Origin: Chitinophaga pinensis
GTDB lineage: Bacteria > Bacteroidota > Bacteroidia > AKYH767-A > OLB10
Assembly (NCBI GenBank): GCA_943332105.1
Contig: CALQOD010000018.1
Coordinates: 1 to 37,190 of the forward strand
Length of the DNA stretch: 37,190 nt
Reading direction: 5' to 3'
Shown: piece after piece, positions 1,525 through 37,087 of the stretch
Numbering within the stretch: the first letter of the stretch is position 1
Layout: each line of letters opens with the position of its first letter
Position numbers and translations under genes: made by a program
Notes under the pieces: model-generated
The model's database searches: none
The model's input: the letters and a program-made list of their open reading frames with translations, nothing else
Told to the model about the DNA's origin: nothing

Positions 1525-2316
1525 TCAAATGACTAAACCATTAGATGTCTCACTGATTTTTTCCAATACAGAATCCCACAACAACTTTCTTGATTTTAAT
1601 GCAGCAATTGTAGCACTTGTGGCTTCTTCCCATTTAGTTTCATCATCACCACAAAGCTCTTGCGTCATTTCTAAAGCCAGATGCGAATGATGTCCACCAT
1701 CGACTTCTATATGTCGCGCGATGTAATAATGCAACGTCTCAAGCTGATCAGGGAATTGCGCTTTTAATGTTTTGATGATTTCTAAAAACATATCCGGAAT
1801 TAAATCTTCACGACCGAAAGTAAATACCGCAGCCACTACATGTGGTTTATTTGTTTGAATAAACTCAAACGTTTGATTTAAAAATTGATTCGGCCCACTT
1901 GGTAAATCAGATACTGCGATTGCTTCAGCAATTGTTTTTCCTGAATGAAGGTTGTGAATTAAATGGGAGATAGTTTTTGTATCGCAGCCAATTTCATTCA
2001 TGGCTTTTAAATACAATTCAAAATGACTAGTTCTGTTTCCGTGTTGGTCCACATCACTTTCTTCGCCAGTAACAATTTCATTAATTAAAAAACGGGTGTT
2101 GGCTGAACCGACTGCCATCCAGGGTAAGGTAGTGCAGGTTAAGTTGATCTGTAAATATTTTAACAGCGACATAAAATCCCACACTGCAAAAACGTGGTGT
2201 TCCATGAACGAATGAATATCGGTTAGGGAACTGATGGAAGAGTATAAAGGGTGATTTATTAATGCTTCTCGGTGAGGGGCAATGGTCGCTTTTAATTTTT
2301 GGATAGGGTGATTCAT
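1525..2316 (-). CDS. DUF3050 family protein (heme-oxygenase-like fold)
   Basis: 263 residues from the ATG at 2316 (MNHPIQKLK). An upstream in-frame ATG would add 27 residues that do not fit the family, so it was not used. The opening, with a His-rich stretch (SFMEHHVFAVWDFMSLLKYL), matches the DUF3050 family, all-helical proteins thought to adopt a heme-oxygenase/TenA-like fold. Other potential metal-binding residues occur near GREDLIPDMF and in HYYIARHIEVDGGHHSHLA. The repeated His/Glu/Asp placement suggests a di-metal site, but this is inference. Function is unknown. It is divergent from the lipoprotein gene at 2434, with 117 nt between the two starts. Confidence 0.85.
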   Translation of the reverse strand: MNHPIQKLKATIAPHREALINHPLYSSISSLTDIHSFMEHHVFAVWDFMSLLKYLQINLTCTTLPWMAVGSANTRFLINEIVTGEESDVDQHGNRTSHFELYLKAMNEIGCDTKTISHLIHNLHSGKTIAEAIAVSDLPSGPNQFLNQTFEFIQTNKPHVVAAVFTFGREDLIPDMFLEIIKTLKAQFPDQLETLHYYIARHIEVDGGHHSHLALEMTQELCGDDETKWEEATSATIAALKSRKLLWDSVLEKISETSNGLVI

Positions 2317-2433
2317 GACGTTAGAACAATAGAAGAGAAATTCAGTTTTGGTTGTTATTAAATTTATGCAAAAATGAACAATTATCATATTATTCACGGC
2401 ACTAAATATTTATCATTGCAAAAATATTACATT

Positions 2434-4090: not shown

Positions 4091-4114
4091 TTCTCCCGTT
4101 TTTAACAATATTCG

Positions 4115-4141
4115 AAAGTCGCTCAAATGGGCGACTTTTTT
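4115..4141 (+). terminator. Intrinsic terminator after the SIMPL gene
   Basis: Arms AAAGTCGC (4115-4122) and GCGACTTT (4131-4138) enclose an 8-nt loop and run into a T tract. It separates the SIMPL gene from the suf promoter. Confidence 0.85.
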
Positions 4142-4210
4142 ATTTATTCGATATAATCAATCAACACGCTTTTCAGAGTGAAAATCTTTTTGGCTTCCTG
4201 TAAACATTTC

Positions 4211-4233
4211 CTATGTAGAATTGTTCTAAATAG
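4211..4233. promoter_or_regulatory. Inverted repeat, candidate operator of the suf operon
   Basis: CTATGTAGAA (4211-4220), spacer TTG, then TTCTAAATAG (4224-4233). The 10-bp arms have one mismatch. The centre TTG would be the -33 element, with the -7 box TATCTTTG starting 13 nt after the right arm. A dimeric regulator bound here would cover the -33 region. The core TAGAA-N3-TTCTA resembles Fur/PerR-family boxes in general layout, but the regulator is not identified. Confidence 0.55.
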
Positions 4234-4246
4234 GAAAATTTCATCG

Positions 4247-4254
4247 TATCTTTG
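4247..4254 (+). promoter_or_regulatory. Promoter -7 box of the suf operon
   Basis: TATCTTTG is an exact match to the Bacteroidota -7 consensus TAnnTTTG. It lies 19 nt before the ATG of sufA and downstream of the inverted repeat that carries the presumed -33 TTG (4221-4223). Confidence 0.7.
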
Positions 4255-4273: not shown

Positions 4274-4600
4274 ATGATTACCGTAACAGAAAAAGCAATC
4301 GAAAAAGCACGCGATTTAATCAAGGAAGAGAATCGCCCTGTCGACTCATTTATCCGCGTTGGTGTAGAAGGCGGAGGATGCTCAGGTCTTTCTTATAAGC
4401 TTGAATTTGATAGTGTTGTCAACGATGGTGATAAGATTTTTGAAGATAAAGGGATGAAAATCGTTTGTGATAAGAAGAGCTTTTTATACCTCGTAGGCAC
4501 ACAACTCGACTTCTCCGACGGCCTTAACGGAAAAGGTTTTGAATTCCATAATCCTAACGCAAATCGTACCTGCGGATGCGGCGAATCGTTCGCTGTTTAA
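4274..4600 (+). CDS. sufA: SufA/HesB-type iron-sulfur carrier
   Basis: 108 residues, the usual size for A-type Fe-S carriers, from the ATG at 4274. The longer reading from 4178 would start upstream of the promoter -7 box and has no family similarity. The three conserved cysteines are present: Cys36 in GGGCSGLSY and Cys100/Cys102 in the C-terminal CGCG. Cys65 is extra. The protein accepts Fe-S clusters assembled on SufBCD and passes them to apo-proteins in the cytosol. It is the first gene of the suf operon, 21 nt before sufB. SufA is preferred over IscA or ErpA because of this context. Confidence 0.93.
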   Translation: MITVTEKAIEKARDLIKEENRPVDSFIRVGVEGGGCSGLSYKLEFDSVVNDGDKIFEDKGMKIVCDKKSFLYLVGTQLDFSDGLNGKGFEFHNPNANRTCGCGESFAV

Positions 4601-4621: not shown

Positions 4622-6067
4622 ATGTCTGACGACTTAAAAATATTAGAAGATGTTGCAAACTCCGAATATAAATGGGGTTTCGTAAGTAATTTCGAAAGTG
4701 ATAATGCACCGAAAGGACTTAACGAGGATATAGTTCGCTTTATCTCAGCAAAAAAGAATGAGCCAGAATGGTTACTCGAATACCGCTTAAAAGCGTTTCG
4801 TCACTGGCAAACTATGACCGAGCCCGCTTGGCCAAATGTTGATTATCCGAAAGTAGATTTTCAGGATATCATTTATTACTCTGCACCAAAATCAAAAGTG
4901 CAGCTAGATAGTCTTGATGACTTAGATCCGGAAATCAAAGCAACATTTGATAAGCTTGGAATTTCACTCGAAGAACAAAAGCGTTTGGCTAATGTGGCTG
5001 TTGATGCTGTTATCGATTCAGTTTCCGTTAAAACAACTTTTCGTGAAGCACTTTTAGAGAAAGGAATTATCTTCTCTTCTTTTTCAGAAGCAGTGCATGA
5101 GCATCCAGAATTAATAAAAAAATATTTAGGTAGCGTAGTACCTTATACTGATAATTTTTATGCGGCGTTAAATGCTGCGGTATTTAGTGATGGTTCTTTC
5201 TGCTATATCCCGAAAGGTGTTCGTTGTCCGATGGAATTAAGTACGTATTTCCGTATTAACTCTGCAGGAACAGGTCAGTTTGAGCGAACATTAATAATTG
5301 CCGAAGAAGGTGCTTATGTAAGTTACCTCGAAGGATGTACAGCTCCTATGCGCGATGAGAATCAGTTGCACGCAGCTGTAGTAGAAATTGTTTCGCATGC
5401 AGAAGCGCAAGTGAAATATTCAACTGTACAAAACTGGTATCCGGGAGATAAAAACGGGAAGGGTGGCATCTTCAACTTTGTTACGAAGCGCGGAATTTGT
5501 TTAGGATATAAATCAAAAATTTCATGGACGCAAGTCGAAACGGGCTCTGCTATTACCTGGAAATATCCATCAGTAATTTTAAAAGGGGATAATTCAGTAG
5601 GAGAATTTTATTCTGTTGCAGTAACGAATAATATGCAGCAAGCCGATACTGGTACAAAGATGATTCATATCGGGAAAAATACAAGCAGTACAATTATTTC
5701 GAAAGGAATCAGTGGAGGAAGAAGTCATAATAGTTACAGAGGTTTAGTAAAGATTAATAAGAGTGCTGATAACGCAAGAAACTTTTCCCAATGCGATTCA
5801 TTATTACTAGGCGATCAATGCGGCGCACATACGTTTCCTTATCTCGAAGTAAGTAATAAGTCGGCGAAAGTAGAACACGAAGCAACGACCTCAAAAGTAG
5901 GGGAAGATCAAATATTTTATTGCAACCAACGTGGTATATCTACGGAAGATGCAGTAGGATTAATTGTGAATGGCTATTGTAAAGAAGTATTTAATAAGTT
6001 GCCAATGGAGTTTGCCGTAGAAGCACAAAAATTATTAGCCATCTCTCTAGAGGGTTCTGTAGGATAA
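4622..6067 (+). CDS. sufB: Fe-S cluster assembly scaffold SufB
   Basis: 481 residues, typical full length. It opens with [10 protein letters not shown] and contains conserved SufB stretches such as [19 protein letters not shown] and [20 protein letters not shown]. It ends in the right-handed beta-helix core plus the helical end that binds SufC ([18 protein letters not shown]). SufB is the platform on which sulfide from SufS/SufE and iron are combined, as part of the SufBC2D complex. It is the second gene of the operon, 30 nt before sufC. No oddities were seen. Confidence 0.97.
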
Positions 6068-6097: not shown

Positions 6098-6862
6098 ATG
6101 TTAACGATAAAAGATTTAAAAGCTTCCGTTGAAGAAAAACAAATTTTAAACGGACTTAATTTCGAAGTGAAACCAGGTGAAGTGCATGCTATCATGGGTC
6201 CTAATGGCTCAGGTAAAAGTACGCTTGCGAGTGTGCTTGCAGGAAGAGAAGAGTATGAGGTGACAGAAGGAGAAGTGATGTTTAATGGGGAAGATTTATT
6301 AGAGATGAGTCCTGAAGATCGTGCCCGTGCAGGAGTGTTTTTAGCATTTCAATATCCTGTTGAAATTCCTGGTGTGAGCAACGCGAACTTTTTAAAGACC
6401 GCCGTGAACGAAGTGCGTAAATCGAAAGGTTTAGAAGCATTAGACTCGAAGCAGTTTTTAAAAATAATGCAAGAAAAAATGAAGTTGGTAGAGATGGATA
6501 AAGCGATGACGCAGCGTTCAGTGAATGAAGGATTCAGTGGAGGAGAGAAAAAGCGTAATGAGATTTTTCAGATGGCGATGTTAGAACCATCGTTAGCAAT
6601 TTTAGATGAAACAGATTCAGGGTTAGATATCGATGCTTTGCGTATTGTTGCGAATGGTGTGAATGCATTGAGAGATGGACAGCGTTCATTTATTGTGATT
6701 ACGCATTACCAACGTTTGTTAGATTATATCGTTCCTGATTTTGTTCATGTATTGTACAAAGGAAGAATTGTGAAGTCGGGAACAAAAGACTTAGCACTTG
6801 AATTAGAAGAAAAAGGCTACGACTGGATTAAGGAAGAAGTGGATGCAACTTTAAATGCATAA
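6098..6862 (+). CDS. sufC: SufC ATPase
   Basis: 254 residues, a soluble ABC-type ATPase that drives conformational change of the SufB/SufD pair. Walker A is GPNGSGKST (34-42), the signature is FSGGEKKR (146-153), Walker B is LAILDE (166-171, followed by TDSGLDIDA), and the switch histidine is His203. The ETDSGLD after Walker B is typical of SufC rather than of transport ATPases. The 3' end overlaps an ATG of sufD (6855), but the likely sufD start is five bases past the sufC stop. Confidence 0.97.
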
Positions 6863-6866
6863 TACG

Positions 6867-8174
6867 ATGAGCACTTTGCAAGAAACAAAAATTACAATTC
6901 TAAATTCTGCGGTTTTCGAGAACTGGGTAAATGCATCACCGAGAGTAGACGTTTTTGCTACAATTACGAAGGATGCTGCACAAGCTTTCTTGTTGCAGGG
7001 AATTCCTACTACGAAGCATGAAGAATGGAAATATACAAATGTTACTCGTTTAGCACAAACAGCTTTTCAAGTATCAAAGTCGAACGCTACGTTAACGACT
7101 TCAGGTGTTACGAATGAAAAAGTAACGGCAGATGCGATTTTAATTGTGATTGAAAACGGAATCATCAATAAGGCAGCTTCTAACATAGACGCCCTACCGC
7201 AAGGAATTCAAATAGGAAGCATTCACGATTTAAAAGATAATACAGCAATTCAAAAGCATTTTCTGCAACATGCCGATTATAAGTCGGAGCCCTTTGTTGC
7301 TTTAAATACCGCTACTTTTTTAGATGCAGTTTGTATTCTTGCTGATGCGAATGTGGAATTCAATACACCTATCCATTTGATGATTGTAAATACATCGAAT
7401 GAAGCGAATGTTTATATTCCTGTTCGTGTATTTGTAGCTGCGGAAAAAAATGCATCTATTCATGTTGTAGAAACATTTTCTTCTAAAGGAAATAATACAA
7501 CAGCATTTGTTAATGCAGTAAGTGAAGTAGTAGTTGCTGACAATGCAAAGGTGAATTATGTGAAGTTACAAGGCGAATCAGAAAATACAACGCATATCAA
7601 TTATCATCGTGTAGCAATGGCTCGCGATAGTTATCAGCATTTAACAACGTTGAGTTTAGGTGGAGGGCTTATCCGAAATAATTTAAATATTCGTTTAGGC
7701 GATATAAATGGAACTGCTTATCTAAACGGATTAACACTGGCTCGCAATACTCAATTAGTAGATCATCACACGGTAGTTGATCATGCTATGCCACATTGTT
7801 ACAGTAATGAGTTATACAAAAATTTGATCGATGATAAAGCACAAGGTGTATTTAACGGTAAAATTTTCGTTCGCAAGGATGCGCAAAAAACAAATGCGTT
7901 TCAATCGAATAAAAATTTGTTGTTAAGCAATGACGCAACCATGAATGCTAAACCACAGTTGGAAATTTTTGCCGATGATGTAAAGTGTTCACACGGCGCA
8001 ACAACTGGTCAGTTAGATGATGAAGCATTGTTTTATTTACGTGCAAGAGGAATTGGGGAAGAGGCAGCTCGCGCTTTATTAAATCATGCATTTGCTGCTG
8101 ATGTATTAGAAGGAATAGCGCATGAAGGCATCAAAAAAAACATGCTTGACTTTGTAAATCATAAATTAAATTAA
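6867..8174 (+). CDS. sufD: Fe-S cluster assembly protein SufD
   Basis: 435 residues from the ATG at 6867 (MSTLQETK). An ATG at 6855, four codons earlier and overlapping sufC, is also possible. Family features are TKHEEWKYTNVTRL near residue 50, the beta-helix core, and near the C-terminus KCSHGATTGQLDDEALFYLRARG, the well-known SufD/SufB end motif. It pairs with SufB in the SufBC2D scaffold and supports iron acquisition. It is 12 nt before sufS. Confidence 0.95.
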   Translation: MSTLQETKITILNSAVFENWVNASPRVDVFATITKDAAQAFLLQGIPTTKHEEWKYTNVTRLAQTAFQVSKSNATLTTSGVTNEKVTADAILIVIENGIINKAASNIDALPQGIQIGSIHDLKDNTAIQKHFLQHADYKSEPFVALNTATFLDAVCILADANVEFNTPIHLMIVNTSNEANVYIPVRVFVAAEKNASIHVVETFSSKGNNTTAFVNAVSEVVVADNAKVNYVKLQGESENTTHINYHRVAMARDSYQHLTTLSLGGGLIRNNLNIRLGDINGTAYLNGLTLARNTQLVDHHTVVDHAMPHCYSNELYKNLIDDKAQGVFNGKIFVRKDAQKTNAFQSNKNLLLSNDATMNAKPQLEIFADDVKCSHGATTGQLDDEALFYLRARGIGEEAARALLNHAFAADVLEGIAHEGIKKNMLDFVNHKLN

Positions 8175-8186
8175 TTTACTAAAACT

Positions 8187-9431
8187 GTGGAACAACCATT
8201 GGTAAAAAATGCTTTTGATGTGTTGGAAGTCAGAAAAGATTTTCCAATTCTTTCGGAGCTTCCTTATGGTAAGCCACTCGTTTATTTTGATAATGCTGCT
8301 ACTTCACAAAAGCCGCAAGTGGTGATTGATGCATTAGTAAACTACTACACGCATTACAACGCAAATGTTCATCGAGGAGTTCATTTTCTTTCGCAGAAAG
8401 CGAGTGATGCTTTCGATGGAGTGCGTGAAAAGGTAAGAGGATTTATTAACGCAGCCTCAGAGCGAGAAATTATTTTCGTACGTGGTACTACCGAAGGAGT
8501 AAATTTAGTGGCCGCTACTTACGGACGAAAAAATATTCGGCAAGGAGATACTATTTTAGTGAGCGCAATGGAACATCACGCCAACATTGTTCCTTGGCAG
8601 TTGCTATGTGAAGAGAAAGGTGCGCGATTGAATGTAATTCCCATGAACGATCAAGGTGAATTAGTTTTAGATACGCTGGATAAATTGCTAAATGATAATT
8701 GCAAGTTTGTTGCAGTATCGCATACGGCTAATTCGCTTGGAACAATTAATCCTATTAAAGAAATTATAGCTAAATCACACAGTAAAAATATTCCTGTGTT
8801 AGTTGATGGCGCACAAGCTGTAGCACATGATGAAGTAGATGTACAGGATTTAGATTGTGATTTTTTTGTTTTTAGTGCACATAAAATGTTAGGTCCAACT
8901 GGTATAGGTGCAGTATATGGCAAGCTACATTTATTAGAAGAGATGCCGCCTTATCATGGTGGAGGAGAGATGATCAAAAGTGTATCGTTTAAAGGTACGA
9001 CTTGGAACGATGTTCCTTATAAGTTTGAAGCGGGCACGCCCAATATTGCGGATGTAATTGCAATGGGTGCTGCGATAGATTATTGGAATACAATAGACAG
9101 ATCAGGAGCTCATGAGCAGGAAGCTGAATTATTGAATTACTGTACAACGTTATTAGCGGATATCCCATCCGTTAGAATTATTGGAACAGCAAAAAATAAA
9201 GCATCTGTTATCTCATTTATCGTTGATAAAGTCAATGCCATGGATGTTGGAATGTTTCTCGATACCAAAGGCATTGCAGTGCGTACCGGACAACATTGTG
9301 CGGAGCCGGTGATGGATTGGTTTGGAATTCCAGGGACTATTCGCGCTTCATTTATGTTTTATAATACTAAAGAAGAAATCGATTTCTTCATCGAGCAATT
9401 AAAAAAAGCCATTCAATTATTAGCCGTTTGA
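8187..9431 (+). CDS. sufS: Cysteine desulfurase SufS
   Basis: 414 residues with a GTG start at 8187. A PLP-dependent fold-type I enzyme that takes sulfur from L-cysteine to form a persulfide. The PLP lysine is Lys233 (FSAHKMLGPTGIG), the PLP-ring histidine is in SAMEHHANIVPW (130-131), and the catalytic cysteine is Cys371 in RTGQHCAEPVM. The short loop around that Cys and the SufE gene directly behind mark it as a group II desulfurase (SufS) rather than IscS. The stop is 1 nt before sufE. Confidence 0.96.
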   Translation: MEQPLVKNAFDVLEVRKDFPILSELPYGKPLVYFDNAATSQKPQVVIDALVNYYTHYNANVHRGVHFLSQKASDAFDGVREKVRGFINAASEREIIFVRGTTEGVNLVAATYGRKNIRQGDTILVSAMEHHANIVPWQLLCEEKGARLNVIPMNDQGELVLDTLDKLLNDNCKFVAVSHTANSLGTINPIKEIIAKSHSKNIPVLVDGAQAVAHDEVDVQDLDCDFFVFSAHKMLGPTGIGAVYGKLHLLEEMPPYHGGGEMIKSVSFKGTTWNDVPYKFEAGTPNIADVIAMGAAIDYWNTIDRSGAHEQEAELLNYCTTLLADIPSVRIIGTAKNKASVISFIVDKVNAMDVGMFLDTKGIAVRTGQHCAEPVMDWFGIPGTIRASFMFYNTKEEIDFFIEQLKKAIQLLAV

Positions 9432-9432
9432 T

Positions 9433-9858
9433 ATGCGTACCATTTCAGAGATAGAAAACGAAATTATAGATGACTTTGCCTTGTTTGATACATGGGAAGA
9501 AAAATATCAGTACATTATTGAAATCGGACAAAAGTTAAAACCATTAGCTGTTGAATTTAAAATTGATGAGAATAAAATCAAAGGTTGTCAGAGTAGTGTG
9601 TGGTTAACCGCTAATGAAAACAACGGCATCATTGAATTTTTTGCTGACAGTGATTCTGTTTTTGTGAAAGGAGAAATTGCGTTGTTGATGGAAGTGTTAT
9701 CAAATCAATCGCCGGAAGCAATAGTAAATACAGAATTAGGATTTATCGATCAAATAGGATTGCGTAGTCATATGGCGCAAACGCGTGCTAACGGATTAGC
9801 TGCAATGATTAAACAAATGAAATTATACGCTGTGGGATTTCAGCATAAGAATGTGTGA
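9433..9858 (+). CDS. sufE: Sulfur acceptor SufE
   Basis: 141 residues. It receives the persulfide from SufS on Cys52 in IKGCQSSVW, the canonical SufE active-site motif, and passes it to SufB. It begins with the usual EIIDDFALFDTWEEKYQYII helix pair. It is packed between sufS (1 nt) and the DUF59 gene (1 nt). Confidence 0.95.
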   Translation: MRTISEIENEIIDDFALFDTWEEKYQYIIEIGQKLKPLAVEFKIDENKIKGCQSSVWLTANENNGIIEFFADSDSVFVKGEIALLMEVLSNQSPEAIVNTELGFIDQIGLRSHMAQTRANGLAAMIKQMKLYAVGFQHKNV

Positions 9859-9859
9859 T

Positions 9860-10225
9860 ATGAGTGAAGAACAAAATAAGCCGGAAGAACTAACGAATGA
9901 TGGGATTGATATTCCAACTATTCCTTCATTGCGTGAACGAATCATCGCTACCTTAAAAACGTGTTATGATCCGGAAATTCCAGTAGATATCTGGGAGCTG
10001 GGATTAATTTACGAGATACGTATCAATGACGGGAATGATGTTCATATCATGATGACTTTGACATCACCTGCTTGTCCTGTAGCAGAAACATTACCTCCTA
10101 GTGTAGAAAATAAAATCAGTGAAATACTAGATGTAAATTCGGCGCGCGTTGAAATTACTTTTGATCCTTCGTGGGAAAAGGAAATGATGAGCGAGGAAGC
10201 GCGCTTAGAACTTGGAATGTGGTAA
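9860..10225 (+). CDS. DUF59/MIP18 family protein, SufT-like
   Basis: 121 residues from the ATG at 9860; an ATG at 9851 overlapping sufE is less likely. It has the MIP18/PaaD motif DPEIPVDIWELGLIY and the conserved Cys72 in TSPACPVAETLPP. DUF59 proteins, including bacterial SufT and eukaryotic CIA2/MIP18, help maturation or targeting of Fe-S proteins. Its place between sufE and DUF2480, with 1-nt gaps on both sides, supports a role as a SUF accessory factor. It lacks the additional domains of the longer SufT forms and corresponds to the lone-domain type. Confidence 0.88.
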   Translation: MSEEQNKPEELTNDGIDIPTIPSLRERIIATLKTCYDPEIPVDIWELGLIYEIRINDGNDVHIMMTLTSPACPVAETLPPSVENKISEILDVNSARVEITFDPSWEKEMMSEEARLELGMW

Positions 10226-10226
10226 T

Positions 10227-10736
10227 ATGAGCGAAGAACCCATTATCAATAAAGTAGAGCAAAGCGGGTTAATTACTATTAACCTGGAAGAGTTTTATCC
10301 CGAAGGTCAACGTAAGGTGATTGATATTCGTGAGCAATTGATAGAAGATGTATTGTTAAGAGAAAAATCGTTTCGCGAATATATTGCTACAAATGATTGG
10401 TCAATATACCAGGATTGTTACGTAGCCGTTCATTGTTCAGTAGATGCTGTGATTCCTCATTGGGCTTATATGCTTGTTGCATCTGCGATAGAGCCGTATG
10501 CAAAGCTTGTGTTTTTCGGTAATGCAGAGACGTTAGAATGTAAATTATTTGAGCAGGTAATTGATAACATGGATGTACAATCCTATCAGGATGCTCGTAT
10601 TATTATTAAAGGATGCTCTGATAAGCCTGTTCCAGCAGCAGCTTATTTTTACTTGACAGCTAAACTTCGTCCAATAGCAAAGAGTATTATGTTTGGTGAA
10701 CCTTGTAGTACAGTGCCTGTATTTAAAAAGAAATAA
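10227..10736 (+). CDS. DUF2480 family protein in the suf operon
   Basis: 169 residues from the ATG at 10227, one base after the DUF59 stop; an in-frame ATG at 10212 overlaps the upstream gene and is less likely. No signal peptide, so cytosolic. The DUF2480 family is found in Bacteroidota, and as I recall it typically follows suf genes. It holds five cysteines (64, 70, 105, 130, 160). The striking conserved pieces are CYVAVHCSVDAVIPHWAY (64-81), KGCSDKPVPAAAYFYL (128-143) and the C-terminal GEPCSTVPV. Two of these pair Cys with a Pro/Ala-rich helix start, as in two similar half-domains. Biochemical function is unknown; the operon suggests a part in Fe-S assembly or delivery. Confidence 0.85.
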   Translation: MSEEPIINKVEQSGLITINLEEFYPEGQRKVIDIREQLIEDVLLREKSFREYIATNDWSIYQDCYVAVHCSVDAVIPHWAYMLVASAIEPYAKLVFFGNAETLECKLFEQVIDNMDVQSYQDARIIIKGCSDKPVPAAAYFYLTAKLRPIAKSIMFGEPCSTVPVFKKK

Positions 10737-12368: not shown

Positions 12369-12692
12369 TTAAAAAGAAATAACGCTAACTCCAATACTCA
12401 AACTACCTTCAATCACAATATTAATTTTTGAAGCAAGTTGTTGTAAAGTGAGATAAGTATTATCACTTGCGTTTAGAACTAAAACAGGCAACTGATATTT
12501 CTCAAAATTTTGCTGAAACTGTAAATTTTTATCGAAAGTAATGAGTGCATCAAAATTATTTTCAATTAGTAATTTCATAAGCGCACCATTTTTCTTCCCA
12601 TTCCAACCCATATCACGTACCGTGAAAACTTGATGGTTGGGGAAATCAGATTTTAAGCGCTTAGGTAAATTCTCATCAAGCAGCAGCTTCAT
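12369..12692 (-). CDS. DUF5615 PIN-like protein, probable toxin
   Basis: 107 residues. The opening MKLLLDENLPKRL with Asp6/Glu7, and the later DALITFDKNL with Asp48 and Asp54, are the acidic residues of the PIN-like DUF5615 fold, related to VapC ribonucleases. With the DUF433 gene that overlaps it by 17 bases it forms the well-known DUF433/DUF5615 toxin-antitoxin-like pair. Predicted action is RNA cleavage when unbound; this is family inference and not shown here. It is the second gene of the pair and lies between repeat copies B and C. Confidence 0.88.
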   Translation of the reverse strand: MKLLLDENLPKRLKSDFPNHQVFTVRDMGWNGKKNGALMKLLIENNFDALITFDKNLQFQQNFEKYQLPVLVLNASDNTYLTLQQLASKINIVIEGSLSIGVSVISF

Positions 12693-12918
12693 AAAGCTTA
12701 ATTATTTTTTCAGTCGAAAATAAATTTTCAGCTAATTCTAATACAGCTACAGCAGTTGATTTTTCTACTGTTGGAAAATCTTCTAGAAATTCATTTAGCG
12801 AGACCCCTTTTTCCAAATGACTGAATAAGGTAACCACAGGAACCCTCGTCCCTTTAAAAACAGGCTGTCCTGAAAGTATTTCTTGATCAATTGTAATGAA
12901 ATCTCTTACGTTTTTCAT
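12676..12918 (-). CDS. DUF433 protein, probable antitoxin
   Basis: 80 residues. ILSGQPVFKGTRVPVVTLFSHLEKG is the standard DUF433 opening (G-x-P-x-[FI]-x-G-T-R), a small helix-turn-helix fold found as antitoxin to DUF5615/PIN-like proteins. It probably binds its own promoter and neutralises the partner. The start is ATG at 12918, only 4 nt after an exact -7 box on the minus strand. The stop overlaps the toxin start by 17 bases, so translation is coupled. Confidence 0.88.
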   Translation of the reverse strand: MKNVRDFITIDQEILSGQPVFKGTRVPVVTLFSHLEKGVSLNEFLEDFPTVEKSTAVAVLELAENLFSTEKIIKLYEAAA

Positions 12919-13413: not shown

Positions 13414-13725
13414 CTAGCTAATTGTTAAGGAAACAGTTTTACCTAAACCAATTTCTAATAGACGATATAAAGTAGATAACTGGATATCACTATGACCATT
13501 TTCTATTCTTGAAATAAAGCTTTTTCTGGTACCTGTTTTTTCAGCTAATTGCTCTTGTGTCATGTGAGAGAGCTTACGCTCTTCTTTAATTATTTCTCCA
13601 ATTGCAAATGCCTTCGCCTTAATTTCAAATTCAGTTCTTTTTTTAGTTCCTATCTTCCCATATTGCTTGGTAAGATGTTCATCGAAAGAAGTCACATTTT
13701 TATTTTTTTCTATTTTTTTTCTCAT
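13414..13725 (-). CDS. HigA-type antitoxin, XRE family
   Basis: 103 residues. An N-terminal basic stretch is followed by a Cro/C1-type helix-turn-helix at about 45-95 (LSHMTQEQLAEKTGTRKSFI, SRIENGHSDIQLSTLYRLLE). It sits downstream of a HigB-type toxin and overlaps its 3' end by 26 bases, the toxin-first order usual for higBA. It is likely an autorepressor and neutraliser of the toxin. It lies in the patch just after repeat copy D. Confidence 0.88.
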   Translation of the reverse strand: MRKKIEKNKNVTSFDEHLTKQYGKIGTKKRTEFEIKAKAFAIGEIIKEERKLSHMTQEQLAEKTGTRKSFISRIENGHSDIQLSTLYRLLEIGLGKTVSLTIS

Positions 13726-14074
13726 GACTCTTAATTTGTTTATTGTTAAAATATTCTTTTTTAATTTTCAAAGCTCGTTCTATTTCTGTGGTTGAAGTTT
13801 TCTGAGCTTTCTTTTGAAATCCATTAAATAGAACCACAATATTTCCATAATCAAAACAACAAAATATTCTATAAATATTACTGTTGAACTCTACTCTAAT
13901 TTCATACAAACCTTCAGCGCCTGATATATGATCAAAGAATTTTTTTGGAATTCTATCGGCTATCGTAATTACGTATAAAACTTGATCAATTTTATTTTTA
14001 ACTTTTTCTGGTTGTGAATCAAAAAAGGCAAAAAAATAATTTTTGTAGAAATGTAGTTCTCTTAATTTCTCCAA
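13700..14074 (-). CDS. HigB/RelE-type toxin
   Basis: 124 residues, with a TTG start at 14074. The stop TAA 12 nt upstream and the lack of any internal Met leave no other choice. ELHFYKNYFFAFFDSQPEKV opens the family; the core is GLYEIRVEFNSNIYRIFCCFD, then LFNGFQKKAQKT, the typical basic end of HigB/Gp49-like toxins that cut ribosome-bound mRNA. The 26-base overlap with higA suggests coupled translation. The -7 box of the promoter overlaps the upstream stop codon. Family is firm; activity is inferred. Confidence 0.9.
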   Translation of the reverse strand: MEKLRELHFYKNYFFAFFDSQPEKVKNKIDQVLYVITIADRIPKKFFDHISGAEGLYEIRVEFNSNIYRIFCCFDYGNIVVLFNGFQKKAQKTSTTEIERALKIKKEYFNNKQIKSHEKKNRKK

Positions 14075-34938: not shown

Positions 34939-34963
34939 GAAATATAAAAGTTTAGAACTTTGG

Positions 34964-34996
34964 AAAAGGCCCCGTTATACGGGGCCTTTTCTTTTT
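34964..34996 (+). terminator. Strong intrinsic terminator after the barrel gene
   Basis: A perfect 12-bp stem (AAAAGGCCCCGT with ACGGGGCCTTTT), a 3-nt loop, then CTTTTTT. Confidence 0.92.
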
Positions 34997-37018: not shown

Positions 37019-37069
37019 CTTAAAAATATAAAGAAAGGGGTGATAAGCCCCTTTCTTTATATTTTTAAG
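37019..37069 (+). terminator. Long perfect hairpin terminator
   Basis: A 22-bp perfect stem (37019-37040 with 37048-37069) and a 7-nt loop TGATAAG, with a GC core (AAAGGGG/CCCCTTT) and A/T outer part on both sides. It can work in both directions. Confidence 0.88.
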
Positions 37070-37087
37070 AACATTTAAATCAAGATA

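Follow-up and report, generated by a model that had tools for sequence, protein, structure and literature searches.

Results

The suf locus and its promoter

The window, by which we mean the whole stretch of 37,190 nucleotides that was analysed, is one contig of a 2.77 Mb assembly made up of 147 contigs. Its forward strand carries an apparent operon for Fe-S cluster assembly, the extent of which was judged from gene spacing, with the order sufA-sufB-sufC-sufD-sufS-sufE-DUF59-DUF2480. It opens with sufA (4274-4600), encoding an A-type carrier (Fe-S_biosyn), and continues with sufB (4622-6067), sufC (ABC ATPase, 6098-6862), sufD (6867-8174), sufS (class-V aminotransferase family, a cysteine desulfurase by context, 8187-9431), sufE (9433-9858) and the genes for a FeS_assembly_P protein (DUF59, SufT-like, 9851-10225) and a DUF2480 protein (10227-10736), the latter closing the operon. 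The start of sufA was set at the ATG at 4274, where protein alignments begin in all 24 loci with a match (23 genomes), which left the longer GTG start offered by the ORF list unsupported. Upstream, a terminator-like hairpin with a T tail (4114-4139, forward strand) closes the preceding SIMPL-domain gene. The suf promoter itself consists of a TTG -33 element (4221-4223) and an exact -7 box, TATCTTTG (TAnnTTTG, 4247-4254), 23 nt past the TTG on the same strand, which we take to be the Bacteroidota promoter form. Elsewhere in the window, a DUF3050 gene near suf (1525-2397, reverse strand) showed a weak match to iron-containing haem-oxygenase-like enzymes and, independently of it, two toxin-antitoxin-like gene pairs were found on the reverse strand, DUF5615/DUF433 at 12369-12918 and a Gp49 (HigB-like) gene followed by an HTH_3 (HigA-like) gene at 13414-14074.

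A long palindrome centred on the -33 element

The original prediction had placed a 10-3-10 inverted repeat with one mismatch over the -33 element, 13 nt upstream of an exact -7 box, and all three statements were borne out: the arms occupy 4211-4220 and 4224-4233, with the TTG as the centre of the palindrome. The repeat extends beyond this first description into a 14-3-14 palindrome with 13 of 14 positions paired, TTTCCTATGTAGAA-TTG-TTCTAAATAGGAAA (4207-4237, no strand assigned, as for the two elements that it contains). These are a 19-bp Fur-type box, ATGTAGAATTGTTCTAAAT (4213-4231), and the core TAGAATTGTTCTAAA (4216-4230).

To estimate the chance expectation, 2 Mb of DNA with the dinucleotide statistics of the window were simulated. 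Repeats of the 10-3-10 type with at least 9 pairs arose 166 times (about 3 expected per window) and the window has 7, so that the repeat as first described is by itself not remarkable. Palindromes of the 14-3-14 type with at least 13 pairs arose only twice (about 0.04 per window), and 11 cases (about 0.2 per window) were obtained for 14-bp arms with at least 13 pairs when any spacer from 0 to 8 was allowed. Two 14-3-14 palindromes are present in the window, the suf site and a GC-rich one at 34962; the latter (34962-34992) and a stretch at about 37020-37070 are long, GC-containing, terminator-like hairpins. When the 31-base pattern of the suf site was searched with the central three bases and the mismatched pair left open and up to 3 mismatches allowed, it was found once in the genome, against none for the control.

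As a yardstick independent of our own data we used the 19-bp Fur consensus published for Riemerella anatipestifer, which is taken from work that included EMSA of four promoters (PMC5609570). The box ATGTAGAATTGTTCTAAAT matched it at 17 of 19 positions and was the top match within the window, the runner-up reaching 14/19.

Conservation of the box at suf loci

Conservation was assessed in a family set of 24 genomes, all of which proved to have sufB, in an order set of 39 (the same 24 and 15 further genomes), and in the best 80 of 584 SufB relatives from named genomes, most of them labelled as Bacteroidota groups including Chitinophagales and Cytophagales. Box matches were compared with 200 dinucleotide shuffles of the same regions, giving p values with a floor of 0.005 that serve as guides, since the genomes are related. 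In the sufA promoters of all 12 genomes searched from the genera g1 (n = 7), g8 (n = 4) and g9 (n = 1) the core TAGAATTGTTCTAAA formed 15 consecutive invariant columns, with diverging flanks. Loss of the arms in orthologous promoters that kept the -7 box had been named beforehand as the pattern that would speak against an operator, and the relatives gave an invariant core in 12 out of 12 of these promoters. The proposed alignment of sufA upstream regions held in part, as the arms were kept at sufA in g1, g8 and g9 and were not found at sufA in the other genera of the family. Among the remaining 12 family genomes, 11 had a match of 15-17/19 located 4-21 nt before sufB, in ten cases within the sufA-sufB gap and in G001 at a sufB for which no adjacent sufA was found.

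A box with shuffle p ≤ 0.05 was thus counted at suf in 23 of the 24 family genomes (the miss being G013) and in 14 of the 15 further order genomes (all but G034, with ten of the boxes in the gap and four at sufA), i.e. in 37 of 39 genomes, either at sufA or directly before sufB; the suf box of the window's own genome reached p = 0.005, the floor of the test. Among the best 80 of 584 SufB relatives, p ≤ 0.05 was obtained in 43 loci and p ≤ 0.01 in 28, and a significant box was absent from the other 37 of the 80. At least 15/19 positions matched upstream of the first suf gene in 35 of 79 of these loci (one had too little upstream DNA) versus 7 of 223 other intergenic ORF upstreams of the same loci. 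Many suf boxes in the range L186-L265 read T/A or C/G second from the centre (ATTTAGATT-N-AATCTAAAT, AGTCTAAAT). Such second-position variants outside the window's clade are possibly weaker Fur sites, acting after the uptake genes.

Position of the box relative to the promoter

TTG stands at the centre of every one of the 12 sufA boxes in the window's clade, and in 11 cases an exact TAnnTTTG follows 22-23 nt after the end of this TTG, the twelfth (L007) having one base changed in the -7 box. The 63 sites with at least 15/19 matches were then classed by rule. Thirteen were of the -33 type and 11 of these had G at position 11 of the box, compared to 3 of the other 50, L007 included (Fisher 4e-8, uncorrected for kinship). 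In a further 23 sites the box starts 2-7 nt past a -7 box, close to the start of transcription, and here position 11 was A in 22 cases. This base pattern suggests an operator that is adapted to the -33 element wherever the two overlap.

Boxes between sufA and sufB

The boxes in the sufA-sufB gap were considered separately (23 sites: 10 from the family, 3 from named loci and 10 from the order, with some near-duplicate genomes such as L186 and L274). A T run precedes the box in 18 of the 23, with 8-9 T in 17 sites and 6 T in one. The distance from T run to box was exactly 13 nt in 16 sites (L017, L018, L020-L023, L186, L187, L269, L270, L273-L275, L277, L278 and L282) and 8 nt in 2, with the distance from the sufA stop codon to the box varying from 21 to 138 nt in those 16; of the 54 suf boxes elsewhere, one shows the 13-nt spacing. 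The T8-N13-box layout suggests a roadblock terminator, in which polymerase coming from sufA would stall against Fur with a U8 hybrid and release, so that sufA would always be made and sufB onwards only at low iron. A stem of at least 5 pairs, at least 3 of them G-C, precedes the T run in 5 of the 18 sites, and ordinary terminators may operate at those five. The main alternative is that the T run is an element of a sufB promoter.

The motif at iron genes

The exact 15-mer TTAGAANNNTTCTAA had 37 sites in the family against 19 for the reversed pattern, which means that single exact matches can be due to chance. Of these sites, 26 were located at suf (8), feoAB (7), TonB receptors (6), imelysin clusters (3) and haem oxygenase (2), the identity of neighbours having been checked with Pfam on the FeoA and FeoB of the window's own genome and on selected representatives of the remaining classes. 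Some sites look like a single locus met twice because it falls at two contig ends; this concerns the haem-oxygenase pair and, in G005, two of the six at TonB receptors. The remaining 11 sites had no clear iron link: they lie at the 3' end of what we read as a transporter-like gene (G003, G004), inside or at the end of a coding sequence (G018, G019), beside neighbours of no known identity (G010, G011), beside a DUF6662 gene (G014) and, in four g10 genomes, by an unassigned protein followed by one that we read as Rieske-like. Tandem Fur-type boxes about 60 bp apart were seen before a TonB receptor in two genomes (G015:C197:7253-7328 and G016:C138:8142-8216).

A 21-mer was derived from the family sites. 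With up to 2 mismatches, 58 forward matches were obtained against 2 for the control over 34 genomes (summed by hand), and in the 15 order genomes not used in the derivation there were 23 forward matches against 0 for the reversed-pattern control; with up to 3 mismatches, the family yielded 81 against 22 (summed by hand). In the window's own genome alone no enrichment was observed, either for the 21-mer at up to 3 mismatches (1 match versus 4 in controls) or for a loose 13-mer (163 versus 250), and the inference therefore rests on comparison between genomes. Seven perfect 13-mer sites were present in this genome: the suf site and one upstream of feoAB (TAGAATGATTCTA), which were kept as its two good sites, two inside coding sequences (C63, C104), one before a large exported-looking protein (C1:124539), one within an ORF of the window (C18:27309) and a seventh at C27:28341. 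The original prediction had proposed a scan for the palindrome near iron or peroxide genes, and the targets that could be recognised were iron rather than peroxide genes.

The Fur protein and its apparent loss together with the box

A single Fur-family (PF01475) match was found in the window's own genome (G000:C33:24254-24610), and its closest solved relatives were Fur proteins, followed by PerR. Its best NCBIfam match was the Fur equivalog (71.6 versus a cut-off of 146), and it fell below every NCBIfam cut-off. Alignment gave H51, E99, H107, H109 and E120 as metal ligands, E99 being read, for this protein only, from the alignment to the solved relatives. Compared with Bacillus PerR (2fe3), Glu occupies both regulatory Asp positions, and the Arg found in the recognition helix of E. 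coli Fur is replaced by the PerR-type Asn. Recognition-helix and ligand residues are described as Fur/PerR discriminators in the available text of PMC8638967. We infer that this mixture of residues would explain how a PerR-like box with TTA ends could be read by an iron sensor. The Asn helix was present in 22 of the 26 Fur-family proteins that were aligned (out of 29 loci), the other four (g5, g10) being PerR-like with Asp. In G027 (C103:16972-17309) fur was matched in two separate pieces, as from a sequencing error or recent fur decay; the suf box of this genome matches at 17/19.

Three of the 39 order genomes had no Fur match (G003, G013 and G034), and the intact suf box was absent exactly from G013 and G034. 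The third, G003, keeps the box without a Fur match; it also lacks purA, which lies two genes past fur in the window's own genome, and for this reason its fur probably falls in an assembly gap. In G013, relA, STAS and purA follow each other in order with no fur between them, in the place where G004 and G017 have fur. G034 is listed as 98% complete, and in its congener G035 a Fur match is present along with a box of 17/19. The absence of the box from G034 was predicted from the missing Fur before its promoter was read, and the promoter then gave 11/19 (p = 0.99) with a right half-site left. This half-site and a 13/19 match in G013 may be remnants of the suf box. Calculated by hand, the probability of such co-loss is 3/741 with G003 counted as Fur-less and 1/703 with G003 left out, figures that come from just two Fur-less genomes, of different families, with fur synteny checked in G013 alone.

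Discussion

Which regulator reads the box

The original prediction, a repressor site controlling suf with no clear fit to the IscR site, is supported; of the regulators that it named, Fur fits best, and Rrf2/IscR and PerR fit worse. We propose, with a probability of about 0.83, that the palindrome is the operator of the genome's single Fur and that Fe(II)-Fur represses suf by covering the -33 element. A Fe(II)-bound Fur dimer would occupy about 4213-4231, over the TTG, RNA polymerase could then not engage the promoter, and the suf operon would be off at plentiful iron. When iron drops, Fur would leave and suf would be turned on together with feoAB and other iron-uptake genes. That Fur binds at suf, that Fe(II) is its co-repressor and that it represses instead of activating are deductions.

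The alternative that survives best, although we consider it unlikely, is that Fur binds the site but activates, or forms one layer only, most of the control of suf being left to a different pathway that depends on iron or clusters. Data from R. anatipestifer lend it some weight. In strain YM, suf genes went up under iron limitation whether or not fur was intact, a sign that control in that organism is independent of Fur, and feoAB was lower in the fur mutant. Against activation, the window box covers the -33 element, a position favouring repression, and rhuB, with the same motif, is repressed in R. anatipestifer: in the sections at hand of that report Fur binding needs Fe2+ and the fur mutant was derepressed more than 20-fold (PMC10986502). 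The RNA-seq table of strain CH-1 includes a single 'iron-sulfur binding protein', without a suf name, that goes up when iron is limited, and in a paper on Elizabethkingia, TCA-cycle genes and/or those of Fe-S protein synthesis were reported as higher in iron-rich cells. Because of the R. anatipestifer and Elizabethkingia data, and of the nearly half of the named loci without a significant box, Fur control of suf looks frequent but not universal, and it may be one of several layers.

Repression of suf through the palindrome by an IscR-like Fe-S sensor of the Rrf2 family is improbable. Rrf2 proteins control isc/suf in other bacteria, Caulobacter among them according to the text available for that case, and the window's own genome does encode one Rrf2 protein with a cysteine cluster. 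This protein, however, is far below the cut-offs (58.7 versus 207.55 for IscR and 47.1 versus 110.65 for suf_reg_Xantho), there is no suf gene in the 5 kb around its gene, and three genomes (G002, G009, which is 88% complete, and G014) have the suf box yet no Rrf2 match; the recurrence of the motif at iron-uptake genes and its match to the Fur box also speak against such a sensor. A PerR-type peroxide sensor, with H2O2 derepressing suf, is of similarly low probability. The box does resemble PerR boxes (TTATAATNATTATAA) and the recognition helix has the PerR-type Asn, but the only Fur-family protein found has Glu at both positions where Bacillus PerR has its regulatory Asp, and the recognised targets are not peroxide genes. 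PerR-like paralogues with Asp at the second of these positions were seen in g10 and g5, and the g1, g8 and g9 genomes have one Fur-family match each, apart from G003 with none. A chance palindrome or a structural DNA element serving no regulator is hardly credible, common as 10-3-10 repeats are in AT-rich DNA, given the 15 invariant columns in 12 promoters, the recurrence at feoAB and before sufB, and the shuffle and other-gene controls.

Returning to Fur as the repressor of suf, one may tentatively go further and ask whether it governs Fe-S assembly across much of Bacteroidota in two ways, by a -33 block in the window's clade and by a metal-dependent roadblock terminator in its relatives; we regard this broader scheme as possible, with the odds against it.

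Comparison with known systems

A described suf operator in Bacteroidota, or this site and its spread, was not found in the open-licence literature, most subscription journals being outside the scope of the search. The proposal points to the probable regulator of Fe-S cluster assembly in a large phylum and to the likely logic of that control, and the presence or absence together of box and fur gene makes a simple genetic test. An operator fused to the -33 element illustrates how a promoter element of Bacteroidota can be housed within a repressor site, and for repressor-dependent termination the relatives, with their T8-N13-box layout, provide a testable case.

The PerR box of Bacillus and its relatives has 7-1-7 geometry and TTA ends and is read by a recognition helix with Asn. 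The window box and its presumed regulator share these three traits; unlike in Bacillus PerR, the ligands here are Glu (Fur type) and the targets are iron genes. The suf operon of E. coli is reportedly repressed by Fur, as Outten is said to have described in 2004. The Fur box of E. coli is GATAATGATAATCATTATC, and IscR and OxyR also act on suf in that organism. Here, in contrast, the box is of the TTAGAAT type and the genome's own Rrf2 is below the IscR cut-off. A Fur operator on a suf promoter is thus a known kind of control: as in the window, the Fur site lies at the sufA promoter of E. coli, where mutation of the putative site raises suf expression, in the accessible part of that work (PMC2682760).

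A further likeness is with R. anatipestifer, of the same phylum, whose Fur box is the same 19-bp inverted repeat (17/19) with iron-uptake targets in the available text of the two studies (PMC5609570, PMC10986502). The 11 boxes of Table 5, in the part of the source at hand, name no suf gene, whereas here the box is on suf, over the -33 element, with TTG at its centre (PMC5609570). Porphyromonas gingivalis Har, a Fur orthologue, is likewise the single Fur-family protein of a member of Bacteroidota; it is a hemin-binding protein without the HxH sensor motif, whereas our Fur has HDH (PMC4222909).

For the sufA-sufB boxes of the relatives, yeast Pol I terminators offer a similar layout, as the polymerase halts in T-rich DNA, 15 bp short of the roadblock site, with the difference that an RNA hairpin is also needed for release (PMC12366685). 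In Chlamydia, YtgR belongs to another repressor family and acts on another operon, and the text at hand mentions no fixed T run; as with the sufA-sufB boxes, its site in the trpR-trpBA gap is that of an iron-dependent repressor placed in an operon past the first gene, and YtgR ends transcription at this operator inside trpRBA in an iron-dependent manner (PMC6504234).
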